Made by a program: the position numbers and the translations under genes. Positions 10,256 to 40,924 of a stretch of 42,730 nucleotides of DNA are shown here, piece by piece. Positions within the stretch are counted from its first letter, which is position 1; each line of letters begins with the position of its first letter. Where the stretch lies: positions 20,418-63,147 of IMG/VR virus record IMGVR_UViG_3300030329_001304; one strand, given 5' to 3'. The stretch comes from a virus. The notes beneath the pieces are model-generated. The model searched no databases and was not told where the DNA came from. It saw only the letters and a program-made list of their open reading frames with translations.

Positions 10256-10257
10256 GC

Positions 10258-10851: not shown

Positions 10852-10871
10852 ATAATATAATTTAATATGAG

Positions 10872-10889: not shown

Positions 10890-10902
10890 CAGGAGATAAA
10901 TA

Positions 10903-11265
10903 ATGACAGAAAAGAAAATTTGGTCTATGGACGAATTAGTCGCACTCACTGATGAAGTGCAAAAAGAAGAGGTAGAATTTAGAGGAAAGGTAGTGGAGTT
11001 TCAATTTTGTGAATTAACAGAAAAAGAAGAACCAAAATTTACTGGAATATCTGAAGAACTACCAGAAGAAGAAAAAATGGCAATGTTTCAAGAAATTGGC
11101 TCTAATAGAGTTATAAAAATGTTACAGAAAGCTAATGAAAAGGCCCCAGATGGACCTGTTATAACAGAAGAACAATGGGCGCTTTTACCAACCACCTTAA
11201 GATATAACATCACCAACAAAATATTAGGCGCAGAGGACGACGCAAAAGAAAATTTTCGCGACTGA
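10903..11265 (+). CDS. Tail assembly chaperone, gpG-like frame
   Basis: The product has 120 residues, is acidic (MDELVALTDEVQKEEVEF, EELPEEEKMAMFQEI) and soluble-looking. It sits between the tube and tape measure genes, the fixed place of the lambda G/T chaperone pair in long-tailed phages. The last codons contain A-AAT-TTT (11250-11256), three codons before the TGA, which allows a -1 shift into the next frame. The ribosome binding site is CAGGAGAT. Proteins at this locus bind the tape measure and help recruit tube subunits. The sequence resembles no family I can name, so the call rests on locus and frameshift site. Confidence 0.6.
   Translation: MTEKKIWSMDELVALTDEVQKEEVEFRGKVVEFQFCELTEKEEPKFTGISEELPEEEKMAMFQEIGSNRVIKMLQKANEKAPDGPVITEEQWALLPTTLRYNITNKILGAEDDAKENFRD
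11250..11256 (+). promoter_or_regulatory. Probable -1 ribosomal frameshift site (A AAT TTT)
   Basis: In the frame of the gpG-like gene the codons read GAA AAT TTT CGC GAC TGA, so the heptamer A-AAT-TTT has the canonical X-XXY-YYZ form. A -1 slip gives TCG CGA CTG ATG and enters the gpT-like frame without a stop, making a fusion of about 217 residues. The slip would occur two codons before the zero-frame stop. The TGA/ATG overlap at 11263-11267 offers separate re-initiation as an alternative. Confidence 0.6.
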
Positions 11266-11555
11266 TGCTAGAATCGCCTGATGCGGTGTTATTATATATA
11301 CCATTAATGAAAGAAATTGGTATGAGTTGGAACGAAATTAAAGGCACACCTCGAAGAGAATTGGATGGTTTGTTAGCTGCATGCTACGAATACAAAGCAT
11401 TACATTCAATGGACGGGTATACTGAAAAACAAGTGTCTGAAATGGCAAAAGAAAACCCTCAAGTACGCTCTCAGTACATCAAGTACTTAGAGAAAAAACG
11501 TAAATTTGAGGATAAAATAGGAAAGAAACGCATACAAAGCTTTAAAGGAGTATAA
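11265..11555 (+). CDS. Tail assembly chaperone, gpT-like frame
   Basis: The product has 96 residues if translated from ATG 11265, which overlaps the upstream TGA. It is more likely made as the C-terminal part of a -1 frameshift fusion with the upstream gene. It is helical, starting LESPDAVLLYIPLMKEIGMSWNE, and ends with a Lys-rich helix (YIKYLEKKRKFEDKIGKKR). In phages the T part of the G-T fusion contacts tube protein while G binds the tape measure. Its stop TAA shares a base with the tape measure ATG. Confidence 0.55.
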   Translation: MLESPDAVLLYIPLMKEIGMSWNEIKGTPRRELDGLLAACYEYKALHSMDGYTEKQVSEMAKENPQVRSQYIKYLEKKRKFEDKIGKKRIQSFKGV

Positions 11556-14152
11556 TGGGTTTTGCAGGACAAGTATTCGCAGCGCGTGTCGCTATAGGTT
11601 TGGCTGTTCCGAGTCGAAAGGCTCTTCAACAAACAGGTGGAATACTTGCTACTGGTATTAAAAACATACATCAACGTATAAAACAACAAGCTATGGCATC
11701 TAATTTAGATAGTGTTCATAGAGAAAAATTAAGAAAGTTAAATACGATGACTACTACTTCTGCTGCAAGAACAGCAAATTTACTTAGGGTGCGTTTAGAA
11801 CAGAATTTAAAACAACTTAACCAACAAACAAACAATTCAATCCGAAAATCTTTTAAAAATGTAGAACAAAATTATGCTAGATTGAGGGCTAAATTATCTA
11901 AACCTCTTCGTCAACAACTTTTTGCTGGAACTGCTGGTTTAACTGGTATGAAGGCAGCTCAACAAATGGCTAGAAATATGGCTGCAATGTCTAAAAAAGA
12001 CCGTGCAGACGCTATAGCTGGTCAAAGGCGTATTGTTAACCTGATGCAGGAAGAGTTAAACCGCAAAAGAAGACTTTTAGAAACCTCTAAACAGAAAACT
12101 AAAAAAGAAAAAGAAGCTTATCGCGAACTTGTAAAGACTGTAAAAGCTGAAGATAAGGCTCTAACTAAAGAAAAACAAAGGTTAAAGGTTCTTAAAGAAA
12201 TTGAAGGCGAGGTGTCAGAAATAACACAAGAGATGAAAGAACAAGATGCCGTAAGTACTGATATGGGTGAGACAATATCTGGCGCAGCTACTACTTTGAA
12301 AGATAATTTTATGGATGCTTTACGTAACTCAGTAGCACTTTTAGCTGCTTTTGGTTATAAATTACAACAAAGCACAAGTGATTTAGTTGAGTTCGAAAGA
12401 GAGCTACTTAATGCTAACTCTGTGTTTAATTTAACTAACGATTCTTTATTTAACGTCGGTAACGAGATTATCAAATTCGGTAACGAATTCGGTATTGCCA
12501 CTCAAAACGGCGCTACTGGGCTCTATCAGCTCGCTTCAGCAGGTTTAAGTGCTGCTGATTCTATGAAAGTATTACCTGAAACTTTAAAATTATCCATGGC
12601 TGTACAAGGAGACCACAATACTATCTCAAAACTTACAGCTCAAACATTGTTTGGTTTTGGTATGAATATGAACCAAGCAGCAGAAGTGACTGATAAATTC
12701 GCTTTTGCTATTCAGAAGTCTCTTATTGAGTATCAAGATTTATCAAGCGCTGTTAAGTTTGCTCTACCTTTCTTTACCTCTACAGGGCAATCTATAGACC
12801 AATTGTTAGGGGCTTTACAGATATTGACTAATAGAGCTTTAGAGGCTGGTATTGCAGGTAGGGGTCTTAGACAAGCATTGGCTGAATTTGCTGAGAGTGC
12901 TATGGATGCTGAAGTAGGATTCCGTAAGATGGGTGTTGAAATATTAAACGCCGAAGGAGAGATGAAACAATTAACTGAGATAGCTGCTCAGTTTGCTGCC
13001 GCAGTTGGACCTGAGACTGCTTCGAATACAGAATTATTAACTACTTTAATACAAGACTTGAATGTGCGTGGTGCTACGGCATTTATTCACTTAGTTCAAG
13101 CTTCTGATGAATTTACTGAAGCAGTTCAAAATACTGCTAATGCTGGTGGGCAATTAGATGAAATGGTTCGAATACAGAATCAATCATTGTCTGCTCAAAT
13201 TCAAATTTTAAAAACAAATATATTTTCTATTTTTGCATTGAGAGATGCTTCTTATGAGGGAACTGAATTTATTAACGCTTTCCATGAGTCTGTAGTTAAT
13301 ATGGTACAAGGATTGAAAGATTTAATAGTTGTGGAAGAAGATGGTATACAAAAATTAACAGAATTTGGTCAATCAATTCAAGATGCTGCGATTGTATTTA
13401 TTGAAAATTTTGATGAAATTTTACACAACGTGATAGAAACTTTACAAGGTTTAGCAGAAGAAGGTAAAATGATTACAAATGTTTTCGAATTATTGTATTT
13501 ACCTCTAAAGCTTATAACAGATGTGATGAGTATATTACCAGCGGGTTGGTTAGAAATGATAGTTTATTTCAAGATGTTTAATTCTGTGATACCACTTACA
13601 ACACTGGCTTGGTGGTCTTTATCTAGAGCAATAGCCGCAGCAACTGCTTCACAAATTGCCTACAATGCAGCTTCTCTGGGGGGCGGTATGGGTGGTGCTG
13701 GGTTAAGTGCTGGTGCTCAAATGAGTGCAGCCTATGCAGCTCAAAAGGGTACAAAAGGTGCTCTTGGTTGGAATGCGTTCCAAAAGGCTAATAAAGGAAA
13801 ATTTGTAACAGCAGCTCCAGCGGCTGCTAGAGCAGCACCTTGGTTAGGTAGAGCAGCACTGGGTATGACTGGTGTTGGTCTTCTTGCTCTAGGAGCTAGT
13901 GTAGCAATACCATGGTATCTGAAAAAGAGAAACGAAGGAAAGGCTGGTGGAGGATATTTAACTCCAATGGCTCAAGGAGGATTCCCATCTGGTGGTGCTC
14001 CATACCTTGTAGGAGAGCAAGGACCTGAGTTATTTGTACCAGAGGCAGCAGGACAACTTTTAAATAATGGCGCAACCCAGAATAATATGGGCAGTGGTAT
14101 GAAGCTTAACAATGTTACAATAGGAATAGACTCTTTCGGAGGATTGGTATAA
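11555..14152 (+). CDS. Tail tape measure protein (TP901-like)
   Basis: The product has 865 residues. Residues about 80-230 are Lys/Gln/Arg-rich coiled coil. Residues about 280-460 match the TP901 tape measure core (FGNEFGIATQNGATGLYQLA, QLLGALQILTNRAL, GIAGRGLRQALAEFAES). Hydrophobic segments lie at about 665-710 and 770-795. The tail end has the family signature GGFPSGGAPYLVGEQGPELF followed by VPEAAGQ. The protein sets tail length and occupies the tube lumen before DNA ejection; from known length relations, about 865 residues suggests a tail somewhat over 100 nm. It follows the chaperone pair with a TAATG overlap. Confidence 0.92.
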   Translation: MGFAGQVFAARVAIGLAVPSRKALQQTGGILATGIKNIHQRIKQQAMASNLDSVHREKLRKLNTMTTTSAARTANLLRVRLEQNLKQLNQQTNNSIRKSFKNVEQNYARLRAKLSKPLRQQLFAGTAGLTGMKAAQQMARNMAAMSKKDRADAIAGQRRIVNLMQEELNRKRRLLETSKQKTKKEKEAYRELVKTVKAEDKALTKEKQRLKVLKEIEGEVSEITQEMKEQDAVSTDMGETISGAATTLKDNFMDALRNSVALLAAFGYKLQQSTSDLVEFERELLNANSVFNLTNDSLFNVGNEIIKFGNEFGIATQNGATGLYQLASAGLSAADSMKVLPETLKLSMAVQGDHNTISKLTAQTLFGFGMNMNQAAEVTDKFAFAIQKSLIEYQDLSSAVKFALPFFTSTGQSIDQLLGALQILTNRALEAGIAGRGLRQALAEFAESAMDAEVGFRKMGVEILNAEGEMKQLTEIAAQFAAAVGPETASNTELLTTLIQDLNVRGATAFIHLVQASDEFTEAVQNTANAGGQLDEMVRIQNQSLSAQIQILKTNIFSIFALRDASYEGTEFINAFHESVVNMVQGLKDLIVVEEDGIQKLTEFGQSIQDAAIVFIENFDEILHNVIETLQGLAEEGKMITNVFELLYLPLKLITDVMSILPAGWLEMIVYFKMFNSVIPLTTLAWWSLSRAIAAATASQIAYNAASLGGGMGGAGLSAGAQMSAAYAAQKGTKGALGWNAFQKANKGKFVTAAPAAARAAPWLGRAALGMTGVGLLALGASVAIPWYLKKRNEGKAGGGYLTPMAQGGFPSGGAPYLVGEQGPELFVPEAAGQLLNNGATQNNMGSGMKLNNVTIGIDSFGGLV

Positions 14153-17100
14153 TGCCTTCAACTAATTTAAAAGTTAAACCAAATAGATTTTATGTAGAAC
14201 AACCTATCACCGTTGGTCAAACACTTTTTGATGGGCATGGGGATTTTTCTAATAAAAAAGATACCTTTTATAATGTAAGAAGTGGTAATAATTCTAATTA
14301 TATAGTGTTGTCTGGTAGTGTAGATTCAAGCGACCATATAGCACGAGGTAAATATTCACTAATGGATGGGTATATGAGAACATATACTTCATCAATGAAT
14401 TTAGATGATAGTGATGGTTCAATTCCTACGTTACAATTATTTGCTTTACATAACCATTATGACATTAGTGAAGGAGGTATGAATTTTGCTCGTACAACAA
14501 TAGCAGGTACAATAACAGCTACTTCGGGTTCAGCTACTATTACTGGAGTAGGAACTGATTTTGATGGTACAACTGGTGATTTTAAAGAATATTTCTATTA
14601 TGGTACATATCAAGGTGGCGCTAAGGTATGGATAGGTCCAGTAGGTTCTAGAGAACAATATGAAGTACTTAGCATAGCAAGCGACACTTCTCTAACACTA
14701 ACGTCTAATTATACTGGAACTACTACTAGCACTACGCAATTACAAAAAGACGACATAATGGGAGCTGATGTCACTAGTTTTGTAAGTTCATATACACAAC
14801 CTTCTTTAAATTTTGAAGAAAATTTTGATGGTTTAGATGCGAAACTTTCTTCAGTAACTGAATACCGAAGAGAAGGAGCTAATGCTGTTGTTAAAAATGG
14901 AAATCCTTTTGTTAATTGTGCTGATGAAGAATGGTGGTATTTTGTAAAGGCAGATGCCAGTCGCAAATATATGGCACCTGTAGGTCAAAAGAAAGTTAAA
15001 CAGTTAATGGAAGACCATGCGTGGTATCCTGCTGCGGCTATGAATACATATGAAGCTAGGGCGGAAGCTGGTGGTGGAGGTACTTACACGAGTGCGGCTG
15101 TCTCAACTTACGGAACGCCAATTTCAAGGCAAATGAACAATCCAAATGCTCCGGGAGTATTGTCTGACGGTGACCTGCTTATAAATTCATATACTAGGGA
15201 AGGTGCTGCTGCAAGAGGATTTGGTGCTGGAAGGATGTATCTTTCAAAATTGGAAGACACTTATTATCGAATATTAAAACATGATGGAAGTTTCACTGGG
15301 TATGGTATATCACTTTCTGAGGATAGAGTGAGAAGAGTTATAAAATTTGACAGTCAGCAAGCGTTTAATCCCGACCCTGAAAATACAGTAAATACAACAA
15401 ACAATAATACTATTTTTGATAAACTTTACACTTCCTTTAGTTTTGAAAACCCATTTACCGCAACAACAGAAGTACCTATTGTAAATTCTACTATTGAATT
15501 ACAATCAGACGTTGTTAAAAGTGGAGCTAACGCAGCCCGTATATACCATCTGTGGGATTACTCACCTGATAATGAAGATGTACAAAAATATTTAGGTAGA
15601 GATAATTCTTTAAATTCTCAAACAGCTTATATGGCTAAATATAATTTACCATATCCAATAACTCAAGATATGTCTTTAGATAGGCTTGGAGATAGACGCA
15701 CTTATTTACCTTATGTAAGTATGGATATGAACATAAGCAAATTACAACCAAGTGTATTATACAATTTACAAGATTATGCAGGAGGAAGTACTTCTATTAC
15801 TGGTAATATGATTAACGACCCCAGCGTTCTTTATAGTGGTAGTGATTTTCAAGCTGCTAATTGGGGTAATGGTTCTACCACTAGAAAAAAGGCTATGACA
15901 TTCTTACGTAGTGTGGTAGTTACTTTTTCAAATTATAAACCATTAGATTCTCATACTTGTCTTGAGGACTTTTTACAATATGGTTTTGATAATGCTTATG
16001 GAACTTCACAAAATAGAGAATCTATTGTTGGAGGAGTTACATTCAATAGGTTAGGTATGGATGGTGCAGATATAGAAAATGAGTTTATCTATGCTCAAGC
16101 TTTACCTATTGTCAAAGAAGATAGTACTCTGTCATATAATGAACAATGGTATAATTCCCTCACCAATAGAGGATTTGGGTTAGCTAAAATTGTAAGCGGG
16201 TCAGGAGCAGGAAAAATGCAGCAAATGATAATGAAACCCGCAAATATTAATAACACTATAACAGCTACTAACTCAGATACTCCTAGGGTAGTTAAAATAC
16301 CTATGAATCAATTTTTCAATATGAAGTTTTATATCGATAGTGAAGCTAGACAAGGTACAACTATAAATTCAAGAAATCCTTATTCAGGTTTTCCTGCATC
16401 TAGTAATGGTGTAACTATGCGATGTGTTTTTGAAACAGACACTGTTTCTGAAGATTCAGATAGTCAAGATTTGTATACTGATATGCCTTATCTCGATGTA
16501 AATTTCAGTGTTTCCGGAGGTAATGCAAATTCCGGAGCTAGTACTGGAGGTACTACACCCTCTTTTGGTATGGGTGATTATTTTTTAGATACTCATGATG
16601 TGACTGCCATGTACCCTAAACATATGATTATATGGGTACAAAATTATAGGTTTGTTTCAAGTACTGAAACAGAGTTTGCTTATGGTGATAACCAAATTTT
16701 AGATACTGCTGATGGTGCAGCTATAGAAGCTGAAGTGTATATAGACGACATAAAAGGAGTAGATTTCTATAAGGATTTAAATAATTTAACTGTTAAAGAT
16801 AATACTCCTTCTACACTAATATTTCCACAAGGTGAAACTGTCGATTCTCCACTTAGGTATTTAGAAAACGGTTCTATAGATTTAACTTCGTTTAATGCAG
16901 GAACAACTTCAGCTAGTGTTAACGCCAATACCACCATACAAAATTATTCACCTGCTACATATTGGAGTATTGGACTTGATAGTAAATTAGATTTACCAGT
17001 TAGTGGTTCTTCGACTGCACGTCGGGGTTATTTTTTAATAAGTGATTTTTACTCCGCTGCTGCTGAACAAGTTGATACTATTGTACCAGATTTGTATAGT

Positions 17101-19710
17101 GGTGCTACTCTCAGTTTAGTTGATAGTACACAGGTAGGTGGTGGCAGACCAAATAGATTGGGATATGAACTTTTTGGTTCTCCTTATGCTAGTGGTACAG
17201 TGGGTTCATTTTATTATGACCCTGCTGTAGGTAATAATCAATATCCTGTCACAGGTGGTAAAGATGTAACAACAAAGATATGTATGGGAACTGGTTCACA
17301 AAATAATTTTATGTCTACTGATGGATTAACACAAAAAGGATTTATACAAGTTAATATATCAGATTCAGGAAGTACTACTGCTATAACTGATGTTACACAG
17401 GATGACCCTGCTGTAGTAACTGCCAATTCACATGGTTTTAGTAATGGTGATAAGGTGGGTATAGTTGATGTAGTTGGAATGACGGAATTAAATGGAAATA
17501 CATATATTGTCGCAAATAAAACAGCAAATACATTTGAATTAACTGGAGTAGATTCATCTGGTTATTCTGCTTATACTTCTGGAGGAATTGTAAGTTTAAC
17601 TTGGGATAATTATTACCAAAACTGGGGTCAAAAAGAAAACATATTATGTTCTACTAAAGTTGTAGATGTACCTCAGGGTGGTAACGATTTAGCAACAAAT
17701 CAACTCCGTTTAAGTGATACAACTGTAATTAACCCCTACAATAAAAACGAACAATATATTTTATTTTCTTATGGATTTACGTATTCTGCTGCTAATTATA
17801 AGATATTAACATTACAAGGTGGTAAAGCTGGTATAGGTGATGATGGTTTGGTTACTTTCAATGAAAATGTCACTACTGGAACTTCTGGACAACCTATAGG
17901 TCAAGAAACTCAACTTTCATACTTATATTTATCTCCTTATAAATATTGGATTAATCTAAATGTTAAAGGAGACCAGAATTATAAACCACGTGCCTATTCA
18001 GGAGTTGCCCTAGTTAATAATAACATGTCAGGAACTAGCACTTCACCATCAACTATAACTGGAACTACTTACAATGAGGCTACCTATACATGGAAAAATG
18101 GTTTAGTACAAACAAGGGGTAAATCTGCTACATCAGATAATGAGTGGAATTTTTTATTAGACCCTGAAGGTGGTACCGCTATAACTCTTAATAAAGATTG
18201 GGGTTATGGGATGTATGATACTGAGACTAAAAAAGGTGGTTATATAAGTTATTTAAGTCCTACGTTAGATTCTTACAATTACATGTCTATTGGAACCTTA
18301 ATAACTGATGCAACTGTACAGGAAAATGGTAGTTTTAATTTAATGCTACGCCAACTACCAAGTGGTTATACTACCGAAATTAAACTTATAGGTGATGAAT
18401 ATGATTCTACAAATAAAGACCAGTATAAACCAACTTTTATATTTGAATATGGTGACGCCCCACCTTTTATTAATAATTTTAATGTTAAACCTGCTGTTGA
18501 TTTATTAGAAAAAGATGTTAATTTATATGAACTAACTACTGAAAATTTAAATGCAGTTAAATTCAATTGGAGTATAGGTGATGATGATATATGGTATAAA
18601 ATGATACATATAGATAAAGATGGATACATAGAAAATAAATATCAACATGCTAAATTATGGATTCCTTGTAATGAAGAACCACCAAATCTAACTACAGCCC
18701 CTGCTATTAATTGGTATAATAAAATAGATAATACTAGTGGTACTGCTACTGTGGGTGCTAACGTTAGAAGCTTTATTGATGGTATACAAGGTTATTCTCC
18801 ACAAATAAGTGGTAATGCAGGAGGTACAGCTTCTATTAGAGTACCATACCGAACTCAAAAAACTATAACTGGAATTACAAAGGCTAATCCTGCCGTAGTA
18901 ACTGCTACTTCGCATGGTTTTAGTAATGGTGATGAAGTAGATATAAGCGGTGTGGTTGGAATGACGCAAGTAAATGGAAATACATATACTGTCGCAAATA
19001 AAACAGCAAATACATTTGAATTATCTGGAATAGATTCAACTGGTTATTCTACTTATACTTCTGGAGGAATTGTATATTTAAACAATAGTAATAGTGCCTT
19101 TAATGGTTTATCTGAATTTACTTTTGTAGTGCATGTGACTTTTGACGCTAGTGAAAAAGGTAGTAATACGATAATATTAGGTCAAGGACTACCGGGAGCT
19201 GGAGTTCTACTAAAGAAAAACGCTAACGATTGTATAATTTTTGAACATGACCATGGTGTAGGTCCTGATTCTTGTACTGGTTCTAAAGTAGTTAATTGTG
19301 ACGGAAAGACTCCATATGCAATTGCAGTCACTTATAAATACCAGAGTGAAGCAGGTCCAGATGTCCAATTGTTTGTTGATGGTACGTTAGATGCATATAT
19401 AACAGACGCTCAATCTGCCCCTGACACAACTGACCATTTTGAATTGGGGTGGTATATTGCTACACTTCCTACCGGTTGGAATTATTTCCAAGGAAGGATT
19501 GAAGAATTTGTATTATGGGATAAACACTTTATAGTTACTGATAATGATGAATATATTTATAATACCGCAGATTTAACGGATTTAACATCGTCAAAAACAA
19601 ATACATGGTCTGCAAGAATGTTTGCTTATGACTATCATAACATTAGAGGTAGTACATATAAAGAGGTAGCTTCTAGTAAAAATATTTCATGGAGGACTAC
19701 GCCAGTATGA
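14152..19710 (+). CDS. Giant distal tail/fibre protein with FCCH-like repeats and LamG domain
   Basis: The product has 1852 residues, the largest in the window, starting at a TAATG overlap with the tape measure. Residues about 115-200 form a small beta domain common in phage tail proteins (ITATSGSATITGVGTDF, ASDTSLTLTSNYTG). Two near-identical FCCH-like modules lie at about 1076-1149 and 1570-1643 (HGFSNGD, NGNTYTVANKTANTFEL, GYSTYTSGGIV). A LamG-like domain occupies about 1650-1800 (FVVHVTFDAS, VQLFVDGTLDAYITD, FQGRIEEFVLWDKHF). The middle is beta-rich and unrecognised. A tail-tip or side-fibre role in host recognition is likely from domains and position. Confidence 0.65.
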   Translation: MPSTNLKVKPNRFYVEQPITVGQTLFDGHGDFSNKKDTFYNVRSGNNSNYIVLSGSVDSSDHIARGKYSLMDGYMRTYTSSMNLDDSDGSIPTLQLFALHNHYDISEGGMNFARTTIAGTITATSGSATITGVGTDFDGTTGDFKEYFYYGTYQGGAKVWIGPVGSREQYEVLSIASDTSLTLTSNYTGTTTSTTQLQKDDIMGADVTSFVSSYTQPSLNFEENFDGLDAKLSSVTEYRREGANAVVKNGNPFVNCADEEWWYFVKADASRKYMAPVGQKKVKQLMEDHAWYPAAAMNTYEARAEAGGGGTYTSAAVSTYGTPISRQMNNPNAPGVLSDGDLLINSYTREGAAARGFGAGRMYLSKLEDTYYRILKHDGSFTGYGISLSEDRVRRVIKFDSQQAFNPDPENTVNTTNNNTIFDKLYTSFSFENPFTATTEVPIVNSTIELQSDVVKSGANAARIYHLWDYSPDNEDVQKYLGRDNSLNSQTAYMAKYNLPYPITQDMSLDRLGDRRTYLPYVSMDMNISKLQPSVLYNLQDYAGGSTSITGNMINDPSVLYSGSDFQAANWGNGSTTRKKAMTFLRSVVVTFSNYKPLDSHTCLEDFLQYGFDNAYGTSQNRESIVGGVTFNRLGMDGADIENEFIYAQALPIVKEDSTLSYNEQWYNSLTNRGFGLAKIVSGSGAGKMQQMIMKPANINNTITATNSDTPRVVKIPMNQFFNMKFYIDSEARQGTTINSRNPYSGFPASSNGVTMRCVFETDTVSEDSDSQDLYTDMPYLDVNFSVSGGNANSGASTGGTTPSFGMGDYFLDTHDVTAMYPKHMIIWVQNYRFVSSTETEFAYGDNQILDTADGAAIEAEVYIDDIKGVDFYKDLNNLTVKDNTPSTLIFPQGETVDSPLRYLENGSIDLTSFNAGTTSASVNANTTIQNYSPATYWSIGLDSKLDLPVSGSSTARRGYFLISDFYSAAAEQVDTIVPDLYSGATLSLVDSTQVGGGRPNRLGYELFGSPYASGTVGSFYYDPAVGNNQYPVTGGKDVTTKICMGTGSQNNFMSTDGLTQKGFIQVNISDSGSTTAITDVTQDDPAVVTANSHGFSNGDKVGIVDVVGMTELNGNTYIVANKTANTFELTGVDSSGYSAYTSGGIVSLTWDNYYQNWGQKENILCSTKVVDVPQGGNDLATNQLRLSDTTVINPYNKNEQYILFSYGFTYSAANYKILTLQGGKAGIGDDGLVTFNENVTTGTSGQPIGQETQLSYLYLSPYKYWINLNVKGDQNYKPRAYSGVALVNNNMSGTSTSPSTITGTTYNEATYTWKNGLVQTRGKSATSDNEWNFLLDPEGGTAITLNKDWGYGMYDTETKKGGYISYLSPTLDSYNYMSIGTLITDATVQENGSFNLMLRQLPSGYTTEIKLIGDEYDSTNKDQYKPTFIFEYGDAPPFINNFNVKPAVDLLEKDVNLYELTTENLNAVKFNWSIGDDDIWYKMIHIDKDGYIENKYQHAKLWIPCNEEPPNLTTAPAINWYNKIDNTSGTATVGANVRSFIDGIQGYSPQISGNAGGTASIRVPYRTQKTITGITKANPAVVTATSHGFSNGDEVDISGVVGMTQVNGNTYTVANKTANTFELSGIDSTGYSTYTSGGIVYLNNSNSAFNGLSEFTFVVHVTFDASEKGSNTIILGQGLPGAGVLLKKNANDCIIFEHDHGVGPDSCTGSKVVNCDGKTPYAIAVTYKYQSEAGPDVQLFVDGTLDAYITDAQSAPDTTDHFELGWYIATLPTGWNYFQGRIEEFVLWDKHFIVTDNDEYIYNTADLTDLTSSKTNTWSARMFAYDYHNIRGSTYKEVASSKNISWRTTPV
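17381..17600 (+). repeat. FCCH-like module, copy 1 (direct repeat)
   Basis: This stretch of about 220 bases is a direct repeat of 18862-19080, with most bases identical, including long exact runs around ACAGCAAATACATTTGAATT. The offset is 1482 bases, a multiple of three, so both copies are read in the same frame of the giant tail gene. Confidence 0.75.
18862..19080 (+). repeat. FCCH-like module, copy 2 (direct repeat)
   Basis: This is the second copy of the repeat at 17381-17600. The DNA is more alike than a long-separated protein repeat would be, which points to recent duplication or gene conversion. It directly precedes the LamG domain. Confidence 0.75.
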
Positions 19711-31212: not shown

Positions 31213-31592
31213 GCCCTAATATATGATATTACTTCTCTGAACTTATCCTCATCGTACTTACTTCTCCCCACGTTAGATATACGAGAACATATTACAATAT
31301 TATCTTTAGTATAATCTTCTCCGCACTTAATTCTATCTACACTGAGAGCGAGTGGGTGCCAAGATACGTTAGTCCATTCTGGGTCCAATGGTATATCTAA
31401 CCAATAACATTTACCACCTTGTTTATTATAGAAAATATCTTCTAAATCCTCTGCATCAAAGTCTACCTTTTTAGGTATATAATTGGGTTTTAATTTCTTT
31501 TGCCCTGCATAACCTTTAGGACCATAGTCAGCACTCTTCTTGACATTATAATATAATCTTCCAAATGGGTTACTATATTTTCTTGCTCCCAT
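31203..31592 (-). CDS. HNH-like endonuclease
   Basis: The product has 129 residues from ATG 31592, which shares a base with the polymerase stop (TAATG); a GTG nine bases upstream is an alternative. The core FYNKQGGKCYWLDIPLDP, LALSVDRIKCGEDYTKDN and IVICSRISNVGRSK follows the HNH pattern of a Cys-containing hairpin, an S-V-D-R-I strand, then YTxDN and Asn-rich helix. Such proteins nick DNA in packaging, recombination or homing. Location directly after the polymerase might suggest a homing-type origin, but tight coupling suggests a settled viral function. Confidence 0.6.
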   Translation of the reverse strand: MGARKYSNPFGRLYYNVKKSADYGPKGYAGQKKLKPNYIPKKVDFDAEDLEDIFYNKQGGKCYWLDIPLDPEWTNVSWHPLALSVDRIKCGEDYTKDNIVICSRISNVGRSKYDEDKFREVISYIRANL

Positions 31593-33826
31593 TATACCCA
31601 CTCCGCTAATGTTTGTTGACTTTTATCCAAGAGGGTAATAGGTGGTTTCTTTTTAACCTTATCCTTTAGATTAAATTTTATCAATAGATTACTGATAGTA
31701 TCCCAGTAATATGTTATGTCTATTTCTTCTATGGATGTAATAGTTTCTTTAAGTTTATATCCTTCCTTAGTCTTAGCATAAAAGTAAGTAGTACCAACTG
31801 AGGGGTCTATACCTATTTCTTTGCCTAGGTTAGATAATGTTACCGTCAAATCAGTATCTGATTTATATTCATCATACCCTCGGTTCATGCTTCTACGCAT
31901 AATAAAGTCGTCTAACACATACTCATCAAGATTATATAACTTATCGACAAAAGAACTTGTAACGGTGTTATTTAACCGAGCGTCAGATAATTTATCTAAC
32001 ACCTTATTATAGAATTTAGAGCGGCTCTTTGATTTAAATGTGCTTCCATGCTTCGTAACACTACCATCCAAGTTACGCAATATATAATTACCAACTTGAA
32101 TCCATACACCCTCATCATACTCATCCTTATCCATATCGATATGAACTGATTCACATTGACCGTTGAGTTTATATTCTAATAATTTACGCAATCTATTAGT
32201 TAACCATTGTTCGTCAACATCCACATTAGTATTAATCCCATCTGTATGTACATATACCACAGCATCTTCTCCATATCTGCCACGGATGATATCGACGGCC
32301 GAAAGGATGAGGAACCGCGCCATCGCGGTGATAGTAATACCCACAGCCATATCACCGTAAGTAATGTAAGGATTAGCGTTTGCACCATAGAAAGTATTCA
32401 CCATTATTTTAAGAGCATCGGACTTACTCTTGTCCTCTTTAGTCTTACCAGCCTTATAAGGTTTTCGCATCTCTTTAAATGTAGAACACATATTATACAA
32501 ACAACTATTCTCAGTTCTGTCAATTTTCACCATCAACCTTTTGTTAACTTTATTATCAGGAACATAGAGGATTCCATCCTTAAACTCTATATCTGGGGTA
32601 TACTCATCATAGCCCACAATTCTAGTCGTATCAGGCCCTAAGTTGAGAGCCATCGCTATAGAGGGGTAATACGAACTAAAATCTATTTTAAAGTTCTTAG
32701 CTTCAAAGCCCGGTCTATACAATTGAATGTGTGCAGCTTGGTAGTTGCCCTTATCAAATCTAAAAATTTGACTATGTCGCTCTTTGTTTCTATCAAGCGC
32801 TACTATGCCCTGCTCAAATAGAGCCCTGCCCTGTAGAATTTTCGTAATGTAGCTACTGGGGGCGTTTATATAGGTCGCTAAGGGGACACAGAGAACCTCT
32901 GCTACGTATTGTATTTGTGGAAAGTAGTGGTTATACATAAACATTGTGCAGTCCACATCAGACAGAACGTAGTCTTCGATTTCTTGTAGCGAGTAGTCCA
33001 TTAGGGTTTTGCTACCGAAGTCGAGCTCAATTGGATTGAGCCCAAATGCTTGAGATACCTGCTTTAGACCACGAGGCAAGCCTGACAAAGAATAGTCCAG
33101 TCGTGCCCAGCGAAGGAGGTCGAGTATAACTCGGCCACCAGCTGCCATCTTTAATTCACGTTGGTCCTTAGGGTCTTCATAGCCCCAGCTAGACCCATCT
33201 CGGTTGAGATGTTTTTTATATTGGGTTTCGTTTATATGATTATACCGAACTCTGTGTAGTATTTGTGGAATATCATAACCCACAAGATTCCACCCCGCAA
33301 TAATATCAGGGTCATAGTCTTGTACAAAATTTGCGAAGTCCCATAACAGTTGTTTATCATCTTGATTCTCATTATCCCATAGGAAGACTTTGCGCTCTCC
33401 GGTGGAACAGACAATGCCGATTGCTACGACAGGATATTTCTCTCCAAAAGGAAAGGTCCCATCGGGGGAGTGTGTTTCTATATCAAACACAAGGCATTTA
33501 ACTTCTTTGTCGTTAGGGTAATCAGCAAAGAACTTAGGATGTTCTATGCATAACCTTTCGAGTAAAGTTTCTCTTCCACCATCAAAGAGTGCGTGAGTAG
33601 GAATATGGTCCCTACCCGGTGTATATTCGTGCTTCTTTAGGTTGACAGTTTTATCAGAGCCTATAAGCTTCTTAGTCTCCCCTAAGTCATCCTCAGTATA
33701 GAAGTATGGTGTAAACGGAGACTTAACAGCCTCAGCTTGACCATTCCTATACATCTTGACCATCAAAGAATTATCTTTAAGGTTTATTGTGCGTTTGTTT
33801 ATACTAGCAATAAGGGGAACTTTCAT
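31592..33826 (-). CDS. polB: Family B DNA polymerase with 3'-5' exonuclease
   Basis: The product has 744 residues. Exonuclease motifs are Exo I FDIETH (Asp115, Glu117), Exo II AGWNLVGYDIP and Exo III YVLSDVD. Polymerase motif A is DFSSYYPSI (Asp382), motif B KIMVNTFYG (473-481) and motif C YVHTDG, in which the first Asp of the usual D-T-D is His527 while Asp529 is kept. The last residues KSQQTLAEWV fit a PCNA-interacting motif (Q-x-x-L-x-x-W), as in archaeal polymerases. No intein is seen. It replicates the viral genome, probably on the host clamp. ATGA overlap with the upstream gene and GAGGGTGG before the start support the chosen ATG. Confidence 0.94.
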   Translation of the reverse strand: MKVPLIASINKRTINLKDNSLMVKMYRNGQAEAVKSPFTPYFYTEDDLGETKKLIGSDKTVNLKKHEYTPGRDHIPTHALFDGGRETLLERLCIEHPKFFADYPNDKEVKCLVFDIETHSPDGTFPFGEKYPVVAIGIVCSTGERKVFLWDNENQDDKQLLWDFANFVQDYDPDIIAGWNLVGYDIPQILHRVRYNHINETQYKKHLNRDGSSWGYEDPKDQRELKMAAGGRVILDLLRWARLDYSLSGLPRGLKQVSQAFGLNPIELDFGSKTLMDYSLQEIEDYVLSDVDCTMFMYNHYFPQIQYVAEVLCVPLATYINAPSSYITKILQGRALFEQGIVALDRNKERHSQIFRFDKGNYQAAHIQLYRPGFEAKNFKIDFSSYYPSIAMALNLGPDTTRIVGYDEYTPDIEFKDGILYVPDNKVNKRLMVKIDRTENSCLYNMCSTFKEMRKPYKAGKTKEDKSKSDALKIMVNTFYGANANPYITYGDMAVGITITAMARFLILSAVDIIRGRYGEDAVVYVHTDGINTNVDVDEQWLTNRLRKLLEYKLNGQCESVHIDMDKDEYDEGVWIQVGNYILRNLDGSVTKHGSTFKSKSRSKFYNKVLDKLSDARLNNTVTSSFVDKLYNLDEYVLDDFIMRRSMNRGYDEYKSDTDLTVTLSNLGKEIGIDPSVGTTYFYAKTKEGYKLKETITSIEEIDITYYWDTISNLLIKFNLKDKVKKKPPITLLDKSQQTLAEWV

Positions 33827-34388: not shown

Positions 34389-34696
34389 ATGTTTAACTCC
34401 TCTGGTATTTTTGAGAGAATATTCTTTCTCTCAGTAGGGAGATAGCGGTATACTAAGTCTGCCTTTTGGTCGCTTTGTATGACCCACGGTTTAACTATAA
34501 TTAAATCGTTCTCTCTACACCACATTCTTTTCTTCAGTTTACCACCGATTCTAATCATGCGGGTTTTATTATCAGCACAGAGGGCTCTCATTCTAGAGCC
34601 ACCTGTCATCTCAACTACAACAGCGAACATCTCATCTCGCTTAGGTAGTCTACTTCTTTTGAAAGTGTTCGTAGACTGTTTGGACTTCTTCGTCAT
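34382..34696 (-). CDS. Archaeal translation initiation factor 1A homologue
   Basis: The product has 104 residues and matches aIF1A/eIF1A across its length: a basic N-terminal tail (SKQSTNTFKRSRLPKRDE), the OB-fold strands FAVVVEMTGGSRMRALCADN and TRMIRIGGKLKKRMWCREND, LIIVKPWVIQSDQKADLVYR, and a short C-terminal helix. In archaea the factor binds the ribosomal A site and promotes initiation. The R-I-x-G-K-L-K-K-R-x-W segment that contacts rRNA is conserved. The start overlaps the end of the AAA+ gene by 47 bases. A viral copy could bias host ribosomes, or may have become an RNA-binding regulator. Confidence 0.85.
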   Translation of the reverse strand: MTKKSKQSTNTFKRSRLPKRDEMFAVVVEMTGGSRMRALCADNKTRMIRIGGKLKKRMWCRENDLIIVKPWVIQSDQKADLVYRYLPTERKNILSKIPEELNIW

Positions 34697-36122
34697 TGTA
34701 ATCTCCTTCTGCGTTTAATAGAAAAGACTCATAGTCTTTAATCTTTGCATCTTTTGCGGTCTTGAATATTTTGTCATAATCTGCTGACTCTACTTCTACC
34801 GCACTCTTTGCTCTCTCACCCAGTTCAATATTGTTCCCAGTAAACGGGTCAACAATCTTAATACTGCTACAATTGCTCCTAATGTATTCATCAGATACTT
34901 CAGACCAATTCTCTCTAACAAACTCTTTTGTTTCTTCAATTAAATCACTCCAATTTATTTTTGATACTGGTTCATTGATAAGAGGACTCTTGAAATATAA
35001 AGTTCTCTTACCATCATCTTCACTTTCTAAGAAACCAGTCATTAACAATCCTGTTATTACTGGTCTCAGTTTGGTAAAGGGTAAACCTGCTGCTTTTGCA
35101 GCTTTTTTCATCTCTCCTTCAGACATCTTGACAGTGTCACTATCAGCGAAACCAAACTTATCTAACCTTGTGTCTGGAAATAATTTCAATATGTCAGTTC
35201 CATGACTTGGCATATGTAAACACTCTTCAACAAATGAGTTGAGATATATTCTCAGTCCAAGCCAGTTGTGTTTGGGTGACACTAAACCATAGGTTACACC
35301 ATCTTTCTCTACTTTAGTTATTTCATTAGGATAAAATCTAGCTATTGCGTTGATTAACCTTAATAAATATTGAACCTTTGAACGAGATACGGGAAAGGCT
35401 GATGGTATAGCATCAAATAAGAATGGTGCACATGGGTTTTTTAACTCAGTTGCATCATCATCATCCCTTTCTCTAATAGCATCAAGAATATGTTCTTTCA
35501 ACCCTTCTATTTCTTCATCACTCATAGAAGACATAGTTGTCTTTGGTAATGCTGAGTGCATTAGTTTATGTTTCAAGACTAGTTCTGTCTGCTTAACAGT
35601 TGGGTTAGTATGCATTATCATACATCTACGTTCTAACTCTGCATCAAACATAGCTGAACCTTTGTCGTTCTCTACTGCAACTGCCATCAAAACATATTTA
35701 GGTTCTAACCATTGTGTGACTGAAGCTTTGATTGTTACATCTGTTTTCTTTCTGGTAGCTGTCCTACCGTCTGCCCAAGTCTTAATTATTTCCATTACAC
35801 CCTCAGGTATCTTCTGTGCCTCCGGTATAGCTACAAATCTAGCATTGTTAATGGCTTCTTCATCATACCATATAGCTGTCTCAGACATATGTTCAACAGT
35901 ATATATGTATTTATCAGGTAATAAGTTACCTATCGCTTCCATCAACACAGTCTTACCTGTTCCACTATATGCTTTGATACAGAAATTAGTATCAGATAGT
36001 AAATAAGATAGGCTAGTAGTTAATGCTAATGCATCTTCTCCCAATATAGGAAATAATGTTCCATCCTTCTTTTTTGCGTTGTGGAAATACCTCAACAAAT
36101 CATATATTTCAAGTCTTTTCAT
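34650..36122 (-). CDS. AAA+ ATPase, replicative helicase-like (MCM-related), putative
   Basis: The product has 490 residues. Walker A is AYSGTGKTVL (Lys57), and the Walker B position is FVAIPEAQ, with Pro-Glu instead of Asp-Glu. A sensor-like strand (KYVLMAVAVENDKG), an Arg pair (ELERRCMIM) and a helical lid with a Ser-Arg element (PVSRSKVQYLLRLINAIARF) follow, as in MCM-type AAA+ modules. Residues about 340-400 look like a winged helix (MSEGEMKKAAKAAGLPFTKL, GLLMTGFLE). Its place beside the SSB candidate and near polymerase and primase suggests the replicative helicase. MCM relationship is a judgement from pattern; other AAA+ groups remain possible. Confidence 0.65.
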   Translation of the reverse strand: MKRLEIYDLLRYFHNAKKKDGTLFPILGEDALALTTSLSYLLSDTNFCIKAYSGTGKTVLMEAIGNLLPDKYIYTVEHMSETAIWYDEEAINNARFVAIPEAQKIPEGVMEIIKTWADGRTATRKKTDVTIKASVTQWLEPKYVLMAVAVENDKGSAMFDAELERRCMIMHTNPTVKQTELVLKHKLMHSALPKTTMSSMSDEEIEGLKEHILDAIRERDDDDATELKNPCAPFLFDAIPSAFPVSRSKVQYLLRLINAIARFYPNEITKVEKDGVTYGLVSPKHNWLGLRIYLNSFVEECLHMPSHGTDILKLFPDTRLDKFGFADSDTVKMSEGEMKKAAKAAGLPFTKLRPVITGLLMTGFLESEDDGKRTLYFKSPLINEPVSKINWSDLIEETKEFVRENWSEVSDEYIRSNCSSIKIVDPFTGNNIELGERAKSAVEVESADYDKIFKTAKDAKIKDYESFLLNAEGDYNDEEVQTVYEHFQKK

Positions 36123-36225: not shown

Positions 36226-36887
36226 ACTTCCCTCGCATTTACTAGATTGAGTATGTTGTGTTCACATAACTTGACTGCATACTTTTTAAGTTCCTTTTCT
36301 TCGATAGCTGGAAACCTATCCTTTAATAATAAAAATAAATCTATCATTGTAATTGGTTGTCCGTCTTTGTCCTTTAGGAATTCAGCTACCTCTTCTGGTA
36401 TAACCCATCTATATTTTTGTTCCTCACTGTTGGTTAAGTTAGGTCTAAACTTTTCCTCTACAAACATTTCATTGTCAGTTTTCTTTACAATATATCCATT
36501 AGTTTCTCTACCGAACGTAGTTGTAACCTTACCTTTCTCAAATTCAAAAACGAGGTCAGTAGGGTTTATTCCCTCTTCAATAAGCTGAGAGAATATTTTC
36601 TGGCACTCAGTATGAGAAGCGATAGTAAGTGTTAGGTGCTTCACTTCTTTCATTTCACTGATATATATTCCGTAAGTAAATTCATTAATCTTAGGTGTTC
36701 CATTCTTACAGAAGACACATTCTGCTTCTTTTGCCCAACACTTATTGCGTTTCTTTGTAGTAGGATTCCAATGTTTAACTCTATGTATAGGGGCTATAAA
36801 GGCAAACTGTCCCAAAGCTTTCATTGAGTCTAATAACCACACTCTCGAACTTCGGGGCGATTGTATCCAATCTTTGTATTCACTCAT
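36216..36887 (-). CDS. Single-stranded DNA-binding protein with zinc site, putative
   Basis: The product has 223 residues. A Cys cluster (Cys50, Cys57, Cys60 in NKCWAKEAECVFCKNG) is placed inside a beta-rich region like the zinc-containing OB domain of T4 gp32-type SSBs. Strands such as KHLTLTIASHTE, DLVFEFEKGKVTTTFG and NGYIVKK follow. The C-terminal 60 residues (WVIPEEVAEFLKDK, KKYAVKLCEHNILNLV) look like a small helical or winged-helix domain. It sits in the replication block between Hsp20 and the helicase-like gene. The ATG overlaps the Hsp20 stop. The assignment rests on the zinc site and context. Confidence 0.5.
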   Translation of the reverse strand: MSEYKDWIQSPRSSRVWLLDSMKALGQFAFIAPIHRVKHWNPTTKKRNKCWAKEAECVFCKNGTPKINEFTYGIYISEMKEVKHLTLTIASHTECQKIFSQLIEEGINPTDLVFEFEKGKVTTTFGRETNGYIVKKTDNEMFVEEKFRPNLTNSEEQKYRWVIPEEVAEFLKDKDGQPITMIDLFLLLKDRFPAIEEKELKKYAVKLCEHNILNLVNAREVWI

Positions 36888-37246
36888 TCTATTTCTACTT
36901 TCTTAGCTGATGTCTTTTCTTTCTTTTCGATGGTCATATCGAGAATACCATTGACCATAGTTGCTTTGACTGACTCTGGGTCTACTTCATAATTGAATGT
37001 TCTATCCCATGAAAAGTTCTTTCTATCAGACTTAGCGTTGATTGTAACAGTTCTGTTACTAACTTCTATATCAACTTGGTCTTTATCTACTCCAGCTAAC
37101 TCAGCTGTAATAGTTATAGTTCCATTCTCTTCGTTCATTTGAACATCGTTTCTATGTTGGTAACGTGGTGTGTTAGGAACCATCTCAATTTGGTCGAGTA
37201 AGTCCTGCCACATTTCCATCATATCTCTAGTTCTTCTGTCCCACAT
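36884..37246 (-). CDS. Small heat-shock protein, Hsp20/alpha-crystallin family
   Basis: The product has 120 residues. The N-terminal part is short and Met/Trp-rich (WDRRTRDMMEMWQDLLDQIE). The alpha-crystallin domain spans about 35-110 with ITAELAGVDKDQVDIEVSNR, a loop, and the signature VKATMVNGILDMTIEKK. A C-terminal V-E-I that could act as the I-x-I anchor follows. Such ATP-independent holdases form oligomers and keep unfolding proteins soluble. Virus-encoded copies occur in cyanophages and some archaeal viruses and may protect virion or replication proteins. GTGGAGGACT precedes the start, three bases after the next gene upstream. Confidence 0.9.
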   Translation of the reverse strand: MWDRRTRDMMEMWQDLLDQIEMVPNTPRYQHRNDVQMNEENGTITITAELAGVDKDQVDIEVSNRTVTINAKSDRKNFSWDRTFNYEVDPESVKATMVNGILDMTIEKKEKTSAKKVEIE

Positions 37247-39190: not shown

Positions 39191-39418
39191 TTATTTAAAC
39201 CACAAATAATATGCGATTACCCCTAAACACAATAGATTACCGATTGTATATAAAATTATTGTCTTCATATTTATATCATTTTTCTTTTTTGGTATCTTCT
39301 TAGTTGTTTTTACTGTGAAATGAGGTATTGCTCCCCAACACTCGTCGCATAAGTATGCTTTGAGATGTGGTTCTTCACTTGTATAATGAGTGTGACATCT
39401 ATTACAGTTATGCCACAT
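39191..39418 (-). CDS. Zinc-ribbon protein with C-terminal membrane anchor
   Basis: From ATG 39418 the product has 75 residues (a GTG at 39442 would add eight). The N-terminal part holds a zinc ribbon with CNRC and CDEC pairs spaced by 19 residues. A Lys-rich linker (KTTKKIPKKKND) and one membrane helix follow (TIILYTIGNLLCLGVIAYYL). The cytosolic ribbon would be tethered to the membrane. Similar layouts occur in small archaeal proteins of unknown role. It follows the squalene/phytoene synthase-like gene directly, so a membrane or lipid-linked role is conceivable. Confidence 0.55.
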   Translation of the reverse strand: MWHNCNRCHTHYTSEEPHLKAYLCDECWGAIPHFTVKTTKKIPKKKNDINMKTIILYTIGNLLCLGVIAYYLWFK

Positions 39419-39431
39419 CACTTTGTAATAA

Positions 39432-40037
39432 TTAGGCTTCACTTACTTTCTTAGCTACAGCCATGTATTTTTCTACAGCCATAAGGATAGGTGGTTGTAA
39501 CTCTTTTGGTATATAATCTATCCCATCCATGCCGTTGTCTAAATCTTGATAAAAGATTTCTAAGTATGCACTAAAGTTATCTGTGATGTAGTGATAACCA
39601 TTAGCAACATCTTCATCATAATCTCTTATAAAGTTAATAACTTGAAATGCTCTACCCAATGCTCTGGCGTGTATCTCACAGCGTGGGTGACATCCTAATA
39701 TCTTTGACATCATCATACCAACTGACTCAGCTGAGCCTTTACAGTAATCTAACATAGATACAATGGTGTGCTCTTTCTTTATCATATCTTGATACATACT
39801 TATGTGAAAGTCTGAGAGCCATTCACCTTCGAACTGATACTTGTCACTCACTTCGTAGAATTGTTCTATAACTTCTCTCCAATGTTTGAAATCATGTAGA
39901 GTCTTCTCTCCTTCAACCATCTCATCACATACTCTAAGGTATGCATATAGTTTGTATATATCTTCTTTGATATCATCTGGCCACGCACTCATACACTCAA
40001 AGAATGTAGTGCTGTATTCTTCCATTATCTCTTTCAT
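39432..40037 (-). CDS. Squalene/phytoene synthase-like prenyltransferase
   Basis: The product has 201 residues of the trans-isoprenoid head-to-head synthase family, which joins two prenyl diphosphates (C15 or C20) to squalene or phytoene. The first Asp-rich motif is YAYLRVCDEMVE (Asp38...Glu42, Glu replacing the usual last Asp). The second is FIRDYDEDVANGYHYI (Asp139, Asp141, Asp143), fully acidic. The spacer motif CKGSAESVGMMMSKILG matches the family Y-C-x-x-V-A-x-x-V-G region. Family members are usually 270-300 residues; this one is shorter in the loop after motif I and at the C-terminus, so activity is uncertain. It is translationally coupled to tiny upstream genes (ATGA). Confidence 0.8.
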   Translation of the reverse strand: MKEIMEEYSTTFFECMSAWPDDIKEDIYKLYAYLRVCDEMVEGEKTLHDFKHWREVIEQFYEVSDKYQFEGEWLSDFHISMYQDMIKKEHTIVSMLDYCKGSAESVGMMMSKILGCHPRCEIHARALGRAFQVINFIRDYDEDVANGYHYITDNFSAYLEIFYQDLDNGMDGIDYIPKELQPPILMAVEKYMAVAKKVSEA

Positions 40038-40207
40038 AGTTTCATTTCTCTGTATTTATCATCTGATAAGAAGCCTGTAAGAGTTCCTCTACCAGCTATG
40101 TTACGTCGCATGTATCTGAGAAAATCTATTGTTACTCTCAACGCATCGTTATCTACTTCTTCGTTTAGGAATTCTAATTCATTTATCATATCTTCAATTA
40201 CTATCAT
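40034..40207 (-). CDS. Unknown 57-residue helical protein
   Basis: The ORF starts at ATG 40207, overlapping the upstream TGA, and ends at the ATG of the synthase gene. The product MIVIEDMINELEFLNEEVDN continues as RVTIDFLRYMRRNIAGRG and a short tail; it looks like one or two amphipathic helices. It is part of an unbroken ATGA-coupled chain from the resolvase to the synthase. No function is recognised. Confidence 0.5.
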   Translation of the reverse strand: MIVIEDMINELEFLNEEVDNDALRVTIDFLRYMRRNIAGRGTLTGFLSDDKYREMKL

Positions 40208-40341
40208 TTCTTTTTTATCCTTACCTTTTTCACTACCTTTCTTTCTATTATTTTATTAAAGTCTACAAACTGACCACCTTTCTCTGCTGAGGGTGGTAGC
40301 GTATAACCTTCGTATGGTATCTTTGTTGCTCTCTTTTTCAT
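40204..40341 (-). CDS. Unknown 45-residue basic protein
   Basis: The ORF starts at ATG 40341, overlapping the resolvase TGA, and ends in the ATG of the next gene. The product MKKRATKIPYEGYTLPPSAE ends with a very basic stretch (ERKVVKKVRIKKK). ATGA overlaps on both sides argue that it is translated. It could bind nucleic acid next to the resolvase, but this rests only on charge and position. Confidence 0.5.
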   Translation of the reverse strand: MKKRATKIPYEGYTLPPSAEKGGQFVDFNKIIERKVVKKVRIKKK

Positions 40342-40841
40342 ATTGCTTCTTCGTATAATTTTTGTAGGTTCCATCTTAACGGTGCTTTAAGTCTCTCAAC
40401 TATGTAAGCGTGTTCTTCGAACCATGCCCACTTTACTGATTTCTTATCATATGCCTTACTATATAAATATTTCGCTTGTGCAGGGGTGATTGCATAGCAT
40501 TTCTTATTACGATATTCCTCTCTTCGTATTAAAATAAAACTCATCCCACCAGCTCTTGTTAACCTTTCACCTTGTCTTATTTGGTGTTTAGCGATAGCAG
40601 GATTATTACCATAATATAAAGGAAAAGAAGTAAGATTGCGAGAAGTTTTAGCCTCGAGCATAATTGGTCTCCCTCTATACACTGTAAAAAAATCAGCGGG
40701 TTGCTTCTCTGCAACAGCAATCTTAACAAACCTATTAATATCATTAGTATCTTGAATCCTAAACCACCATATATGACGGCTTCCTTTCAAACTTCTTCTG
40801 ATTTCATTTTCAAAGTTCTTTCCTGTATCTTTTCTTCCCAT
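40338..40841 (-). CDS. Holliday junction resolvase, RecU/Hjc-like PD-(D/E)XK nuclease
   Basis: The product has 167 residues from ATG 40841, which has TGAGGA five bases before it (an ATG 12 bases upstream is less likely). Motifs are GKNFENEI (Glu11, Glu13), QPADFFTVY (Asp50), IMLEAKTS (Glu63-x-Lys65) and the RecU-like TSFPLYYG with a downstream AKHQIRQGERLTRAGGMSFI. These enzymes cut four-way junctions, here probably replication or recombination intermediates before packaging. The region after the active site follows the bacterial RecU pattern more closely than the archaeal Hjc pattern. It is the first gene of an operon behind a promoter with an inverted repeat. Confidence 0.75.
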   Translation of the reverse strand: MGRKDTGKNFENEIRRSLKGSRHIWWFRIQDTNDINRFVKIAVAEKQPADFFTVYRGRPIMLEAKTSRNLTSFPLYYGNNPAIAKHQIRQGERLTRAGGMSFILIRREEYRNKKCYAITPAQAKYLYSKAYDKKSVKWAWFEEHAYIVERLKAPLRWNLQKLYEEAI

Positions 40842-40924
40842 TTTAATCCTCATTGAGCAATTATAGTGGTAAATATAGAGCTACTTATTGCATTATTAAT
40901 CATGCTCTACATACCATGCTATAT

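Follow-up and report, generated by a model that had tools for sequence, protein, structure and literature searches.

The window analysed in this work is a stretch of 42,730 nucleotides, corresponding to positions 20418–63147 of a 63,147-base IMG/VR virus record. At 39432–40037 on the minus strand it carries an ORF of 201 aa with an ATG start, whose product is identified by a Pfam match, an AlphaFold2 model and superposition on CrtM as a miniature protein of the squalene/phytoene synthase (SQS/PSY) family. Three stretches of the translation are characteristic. Motif I, the first Mg2+/diphosphate motif, reads DEMVE (residues 38–42; 39912–39926, minus strand), with Glu for the second Asp. Motif II, the second Mg2+/diphosphate motif, reads RDYDED (residues 138–143; 39609–39626, minus strand), and between the two Asp motifs lies the conserved stretch GSAESVG (residues 101–107; 39717–39737, minus strand), in which G107 is invariant. 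A preliminary description of this DNA had reported the same reading frame within a replication arm, with both Asp-rich motifs and a G-S-A-x-S-V-G spacer, and each of these observations was confirmed.

The synthase gene overlaps both of its immediate neighbours, which are encoded on the same strand. Its start shares 4 nt with an upstream 57-aa ORF (40034–40207, minus strand), homologues of which are present in seven of 26 viral loci, and its stop shares 11 nt with an 83-aa ORF downstream (39191–39442, minus strand), termed here the CxxC gene, with homologues in 19 of the 26. The CxxC gene product has two CxxC pairs, carries a hydrophobic stretch at its C-terminus (maximum 19-residue hydropathy 1.93) and matched nothing in Pfam at 0.01. 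On its other side, the slot occupied by the synthase is bordered by a RecU-like protein (40338–40853, minus strand; PF03838, 1.2e-11). Further along the minus-strand arm lie a family B DNA polymerase (PolB; 31592–33826, minus strand; PF03104 and PF00136) and an HSP20/alpha-crystallin protein (36884–37246; PF00011, 1.9e-11) with homologues in 21 of the 26 viral loci, and profile searches also placed a class II RNR, a pyrimidine-dimer glycosylase and a glycosyltransferase in this arm. A MazG-like gene in the arm was named from sequence, without a profile. The 490-aa protein at 34650–36122 (minus strand) contains a Walker-A-like stretch and is called helicase-like from our own reading of the sequence, as no profile names it; it matched phrog_12057 (unknown function) at 6e-31 and had no Pfam match. 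The synthase gene and the window are similar in G+C content (0.361 and 0.365, respectively). A scan of the window and 14 loci for tRNA genes, as possible host markers, found none.

The carrier is a tailed virus (Caudoviricetes). Upstream of the window, the record encodes the terminase and major capsid protein of such a virus, the latter of HK97 type (Phage_capsid_4, 3.6e-10; Phage_capsid, 7.7e-8) and without a match in the phages collection at 1e-3. TerL matched annotated terminases, among them that of Halogranum tailed virus 1 at 4e-16, and reading of the ORFs alone suggested a prohead protease, a portal and very long proteins resembling fibres. In the related contig L014, two consecutive fibre-like ORFs of 1633 and 1714 aa (9445–14346 and 14339–19483) appear repetitive by eye, and in the window other ORFs reach 1852 aa. 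All 38 phage records matching the helicase-like gene of the window at 1e-3 were haloarchaeal tailed viruses, and all six records matching the helicase-like gene of the L011 type were likewise haloarchaeal viruses. Given these matches, the host is probably archaeal, a reading held with moderate confidence. Haloarchaeal viruses also occur among the many bacteriophage matches of PolB and TerL, and the nearest phage relatives of the RNR are bacteriophages. Judging from some IMG sample numbers, the samples that yielded these contigs are presumably marine.

The proposal that this ORF encodes a squalene/phytoene synthase-like enzyme had been made from its motifs, with a search against PF00494 suggested as a check. 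The window protein matched SQS_PSY (PF00494) with an E-value of 9.1e-25 and 88.3 bits, against a curated cut-off of 26, and this was its sole significant Pfam family. The same family was matched by its relatives (L037, 2.9e-33; L022, 8.5e-27; L011, 2.7e-24), and a match was present in 18 of the 20 viral records searched; the two negative records are from relatives already known to be without the synthase. Among NCBIfam models the best matches were HpnD (3.2e-13), HpnC (1.1e-12) and CrtB (2.7e-9), all falling short of the equivalog cut-offs (49 of 279 bits, 48 of 250 and 37 of 480, respectively). With scores so far under the cut-offs, the name of a matching model does not identify the product, although the family is clear. 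Significant sequence matches in the PDB were CrtM-type enzymes and HpnC, and a PHROGs search with the window protein gave nothing convincing (best match 0.0072, unknown function).

An AlphaFold2 model of the window protein, built from a 62-row alignment, was almost all helix (pLDDT 94.0, pTM 0.90) and showed the all-helical bundle of class I isoprenoid synthases. When compared with known structures using VIA-align, CrtM (3ae0) ranked first, aligning over the whole length of 201 residues (Z 22.4, 2.6 Å, 26% identity), followed by CrtM-like enzymes, HpnC (Z 21.0) and YisP (Z 20.1). Human squalene synthase scored Z 16.6–17.6, and head-to-tail polyprenyl synthases reached at most Z 14.0 among the matches listed. 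The Foldseek result was consistent with this ranking. The overlay on CrtM that the preliminary description had called for thus returned the prenyl-synthase helical bundle along the entire chain, and the proposed identity is supported by profile and predicted fold together. A chance match of the motifs was rejected on the same two grounds. By sequence and modelled structure, the window protein is a member of the SQS/PSY family. Among viral proteins searched by fold in BFVD, no match was found at E ≤ 1e-3. Three uncharacterised proteins (A0A6G8MX44, A0A481ZCB8 and A0A2H4UTS0; E 0.08–0.11, Foldseek probability 0.97–1.00), from Cedratvirus kamchatka, Pithovirus LCPAC403 and Bodo saltans virus, were matched weakly and may be giant-virus relatives of the SQS/PSY fold.

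To describe the conserved core, residues were compared in an alignment (A5) of 21 viral and 41 cellular rows, which leaves out the viral loci L001–L004, L006 and L018 and the cellular loci L110 (731 aa) and L116. Both Asp-rich motifs of the window protein fall in the motif columns of the cellular enzymes. Thirteen positions of the window protein, Y31, R35, D38, D84, Y98, G107, Q132, N135, R138, D139, D143, Y150 and Y191, are identical in all 21 viral rows and in 40 or 41 of the 41 cellular rows, the exceptions being gaps; D38, R138, D139 and D143 are present in every row of both sets. Every viral row accordingly retains the YxxxR before motif I, the QxxN before motif II, the DxxxD of motif II itself and the late Tyr. 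In CrtM numbering, the residues invariant in the 21 viral rows correspond to Y41, R45, D48, Y129, G138, Q165, N168, R171, D172, D176 and Y248. Extracts of a published account describe R45, R171 and R265 of CrtM as diphosphate contacts (PMC13304436).

Around this core the viral protein is altered. Position 42 of motif I is Glu in 19 of 21 viral rows and Asp only in L037 and L038, whereas it is Asp in all 41 cellular rows; the window protein and 18 other viral rows therefore have DxxxE in place of the classical DxxxD, and the canonical form DNIVD is found in L037, L038 and L157. The position of CrtM K20 is Thr in 21 of 21 viral rows versus five of 41 cellular rows. The chain-length position, F26 in CrtM, is Met, Leu or Val in 19 viral rows and Thr in L037 and L038, with Thr in 25 of the 41 cellular rows; these residues lean weakly towards C20 substrates.

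The body of the protein is shortened in several places. Between the two motifs there are 93–99 residues in viral rows and 112–136 in cells, with one cellular exception of 90. The spacing from D143 to Y191 is 47 residues in all 21 viral rows versus 64–75 in cells (commonest 72), and beyond Y191 only 7–12 residues follow in 17 of the 21 viral rows, compared with 38–101 in cells. The other four C-termini comprise a Cys-rich tail in L010 and L011 and a longer end in L037 and L038. The Cys-rich tail (WICNCEYGHQNCKC / WICNCEHGHQNCKC) belongs to the synthases at L010:8001–8687 and L011:8001–8687. Overall, the viral proteins are 198–228 aa long and the cellular homologues compared 235–349 aa (the shortest being a contig-edge fragment), and none of the 41 cellular relatives is as small as the viral enzyme. 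The Glu in motif I, to which the preliminary description had drawn attention, and the short C-terminus are therefore traits of most viral family members (19/21 and 17/21, respectively) rather than errors of a single contig.

The superposition of the window protein stops at CrtM residue 258, and so the C-terminal helix of CrtM with R265 is missing from it. The AlphaFold2 model of L037 (pLDDT 95.9) has this last helix at residues 207–219 and aligns with CrtM 10–283 over 218 residues (Z 25.2, 2.2 Å), although in our own reading of a further alignment (A4) it has no Arg at the R265 column. In the same reading, R265 is itself not universal, with two of eight cellular comparators lacking Arg there. 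As modelled, a nearly complete form of the enzyme exists among close relatives of the virus, and the window form would have been derived by reduction from a form resembling that of L037.

Protein and alignment scans of IMG/VR recovered 26 contigs besides that of the window, with synthases 42–99% identical to the window protein (P0001); the most distant were L037 and L038, at 43 and 42%. A DNA pattern for GxAxQxxNxxRDxxED found 24 IMG/VR contigs, consisting of 21 of the 26 already known, a new member (L157) and two others (L149 and L162), so that 22 of the 24 belong to this virus group. In total there are 28 carriers, including the contig of the window, and this census is a lower bound because the pattern misses variants such as RDYDDD. 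Across 17 pairs of viral copies dN/dS was 0.014–0.139, and the viral gene is under purifying selection. The gene in L149 and L162 resembles a carotenoid gene of a host lying at the edge of a prophage, so IMG/VR does contain instances of what a sceptical reader might suspect here, namely that the gene belongs to a host and was misassembled or its contig miscalled, or that it is peculiar to one assembly. For the present family this explanation is barely conceivable and can be taken as refuted for practical purposes, given the 28 contigs, their common and conserved viral neighbours, the relatives with an empty slot, and the difference in length between the viral proteins and their cellular homologues.

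A first scan of genomes with the viral alignment returned no cellular relative. A second scan with a mixed alignment was used for its best 80 matches, for which the best-segment identities were 22–33%. No title among these 80 named Poseidoniales or Nitrososphaeria, and those groups are therefore absent from the tree. To thin near-copies, 43 of the 80 genome loci were picked by hand, and removal of L110 left 42; these were combined with 22 viral rows, eight plasmid loci and the two prophage-edge genes into a tree of 74 rows, leaving out the viral near-copies L001–L004 and L034, and L018, which encodes the same protein as L017. The 22 viral rows formed a single branch (SH-aLRT 99) on a stem of 1.39 changes per column, in a tree made by a quick method in which the program flags the pairing of the viruses with the long-branched L149 as unsafe. 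The viral copies are monophyletic with respect to the cellular enzymes sampled. In the comparison with archaeal enzymes that the preliminary description recommended, the haloarchaeal phytoene synthases grouped with other cellular enzymes, apart from the viral clade, and the position of that clade among cellular enzymes is not settled by the tree. Two unannotated records in the phages collection, OR849911.1 and OR844999.1, each a Staphylococcus ‘phage’ with a 25% match to the synthase, are perhaps bacterial DNA in phage assemblies.

Variation at the slot was surveyed in 28 loci anchored on the 490-aa helicase-like gene, of which eight were excluded for want of one or both flanks. The remaining 20 showed both RecU and the CxxC gene, with the synthase present in 16 and absent from four (L138, L140, L141 and L145), where only small ORFs lie between the two flanks. 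The order RecU, synthase, CxxC gene was seen in 14 of the 16, and in the contigs L037 and L038 the synthase stands after the CxxC gene. Elsewhere, in L021, L022, L031 and L032, the synthase precedes PolB near MazG, and it follows the helicase-like gene in the three of these where that gene is seen. Just downstream of the CxxC gene in L145, which has no synthase, are a NifU-domain protein (2907–3575; PF01106, 2.9e-19) and an Fe-S_biosyn protein (3556–3897; PF01521, 5.5e-15), iron-sulphur assembly genes that are possibly an alternative cargo.

In another virus lineage (L010, L011, L033, L034 and L035), PolB is 22–24% and the helicase-like protein approximately 22% identical to those of the window, and despite this distance the synthase is 59–64% identical. 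Conversely, L037 and L038 have close PolB (83 and 69%) and helicase-like proteins (81 and 75%) and a synthase only 42–43% identical. On these figures, exchange between virus lineages would explain the identities better than strict descent. The class II RNR may also have been exchanged, being approximately 67% identical to that of the window in L011 (13287–15155), L034 (10115–11968) and L035 (13695–15548). Because presence and absence of the synthase are mixed within groups of the helicase-like tree, gains or losses must have occurred more than once, and its occurrence in two virus lineages and at different genome positions argues that the function pays.

GGPP and FPP are precursors of archaeal membrane lipids and carotenoids. 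We favour, as the likelier reading, a virus-specific shortened member of the SQS/PSY family that would bind host GGPP and/or FPP and probably join two of them head to head, diverting isoprenoid flux. In such a mechanism the synthase would be a cargo gene placed among those for replication, in tailed viruses whose hosts are probably archaea. Since the Mg/diphosphate core is intact, binding of host GGPP and/or FPP through the two acidic motifs and Mg2+ is expected. Head-to-head joining of two prenyl diphosphates would then yield phytoene, dehydrosqualene or the cyclopropyl intermediate as a C40 or C30 product, drawing on host isoprenoids during infection. The Amino_oxidase family (PF01593) is taken here to include CrtI-type desaturases. 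Neither this family nor polyprenyl synthase (PF00348) was found in any of 20 viral records searched, 18 of them with the synthase (of the 28 carriers) and some possibly fragments, whereas each was found in 14 of 14 control genomes. A viral carotenoid pathway was rejected on this basis; the virus would bring one step only, with the substrate and later steps coming from the host. The head-to-head product, or the drain on GGPP, could in turn reprogramme the host through altered membranes, pigments or superinfection.

Several features count against the head-to-head reading, namely the altered motif I and K20 position, the shorter body and the loss of the last helix with R265, and the chemistry could be altered or partial. 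The main rival is accordingly that the same fold catalyses another reaction, either hydrolysis of prenyl diphosphates as in a YisP-like phosphatase (FPP to farnesol) or prenyl transfer to another acceptor, in which case FPP/GGPP would be drained, or a prenol or prenylated product formed in place of a head-to-head hydrocarbon. YisP (3we9, 247 residues in the structure) aligned over 182 residues at 2.1 Å and is an FPP phosphatase according to extracts of PMC10148934, and the carbazole prenyltransferases LvqB4 and CqsB4 (Z 18.8 and 18.7) demonstrate that the fold performs other reactions. These likenesses, together with the altered residues and lost helix, keep other chemistry in play at roughly one chance in four, given that CrtM-type synthases are the closest in both sequence and structure, though by a Z only 2.3 above that of YisP, and that the divergent subclade of L037, L038 and L157 keeps the canonical motif I, with the last helix kept in the model of L037. 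A further candidate is a protein that has kept the fold but not the catalysis, and that binds prenyl diphosphates, acts as a decoy for them or regulates a host enzyme; it could account for the lost helix, the loss of several presumed diphosphate contacts and the Asp-to-Glu change in motif I. In inactive paralogues, the motif aspartates tend to be the first to go, whereas here all 21 viral rows share the core Mg/diphosphate residues although the sequences otherwise diverge to 42% identity, and dN/dS is low; such a role is improbable.

Under the preferred head-to-head reading, the analysis suggests that these viruses redirect the building blocks from which archaeal membranes and pigments are made. 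As archaeal membranes are built from GGPP, a viral enzyme feeding on prenyl diphosphates would touch the defining chemistry of the archaeal cell. The wider proposition, of a mobile, virus-specific minimal SQS/PSY class long kept in archaeal tailed viruses and reprogramming isoprenoid metabolism, we regard as evenly balanced.

Literature searches of open-access text found, among the matches listed, no enzyme of this family in prokaryotic viruses. The terms ‘squalene’ and ‘phytoene’ do not occur in PMC10160649 or PMC12451623, and PMC13108676, also from the magrovirus and archaeal-virus literature, names no squalene/phytoene synthase gene; in extracts of PMC10507051, ‘phytoene’ concerns MAGs and isolates. 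Within reach of these searches, the present protein would be the first SQS/PSY-family enzyme from prokaryotic viruses. For viruses at large, the remark in the preliminary description that it knew of no established example needs correcting, as extracts of PMC6792449 name a phytoene synthase, together with a desaturase, a cyclase and a rhodopsin, in cPacV-1605. That case is a giant virus of marine eukaryotes with a beta-carotene/retinal pathway, according to the same extracts, whereas here a lone miniature enzyme is carried by tailed viruses.

Among cellular enzymes, the haloarchaeal phytoene synthases (Natrialba, Halocatena) belong to the same family and are among the best cellular tblastn matches at 25–28% identity, but are approximately 320 aa long and in some records adjoin crtI, a prenyltransferase or cruF. 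HpnC and HpnD, of the bacterial hopanoid squalene route, gave the best NCBIfam E-values, with viral scores nevertheless far under the equivalog cut-offs, and YisP of B. subtilis, a farnesyl diphosphate phosphatase, shares the SQS/PSY fold while its reaction is hydrolysis. The closest likeness is to CrtM of S. aureus and the CrtM-like 8is6, with which the viral protein has in common the fold over its whole length, motif II, the YxxxR before motif I, the QxxNxxRD and the late Tyr. It differs from CrtM by the absence of the last helix and of approximately 25 residues following motif II, by the Glu in motif I and by a Thr in place of K20. By sequence and predicted fold it is of the SQS/PSY family, yet it lacks two features of the classical head-to-head synthases, namely the last helix and, in motif I, the second Asp. 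A member of approximately 200 residues that has shed its last helix and kept its metal-binding core offers a minimal version, found in nature, of a well-studied enzyme, with which the parts needed for catalysis can be directly tested.
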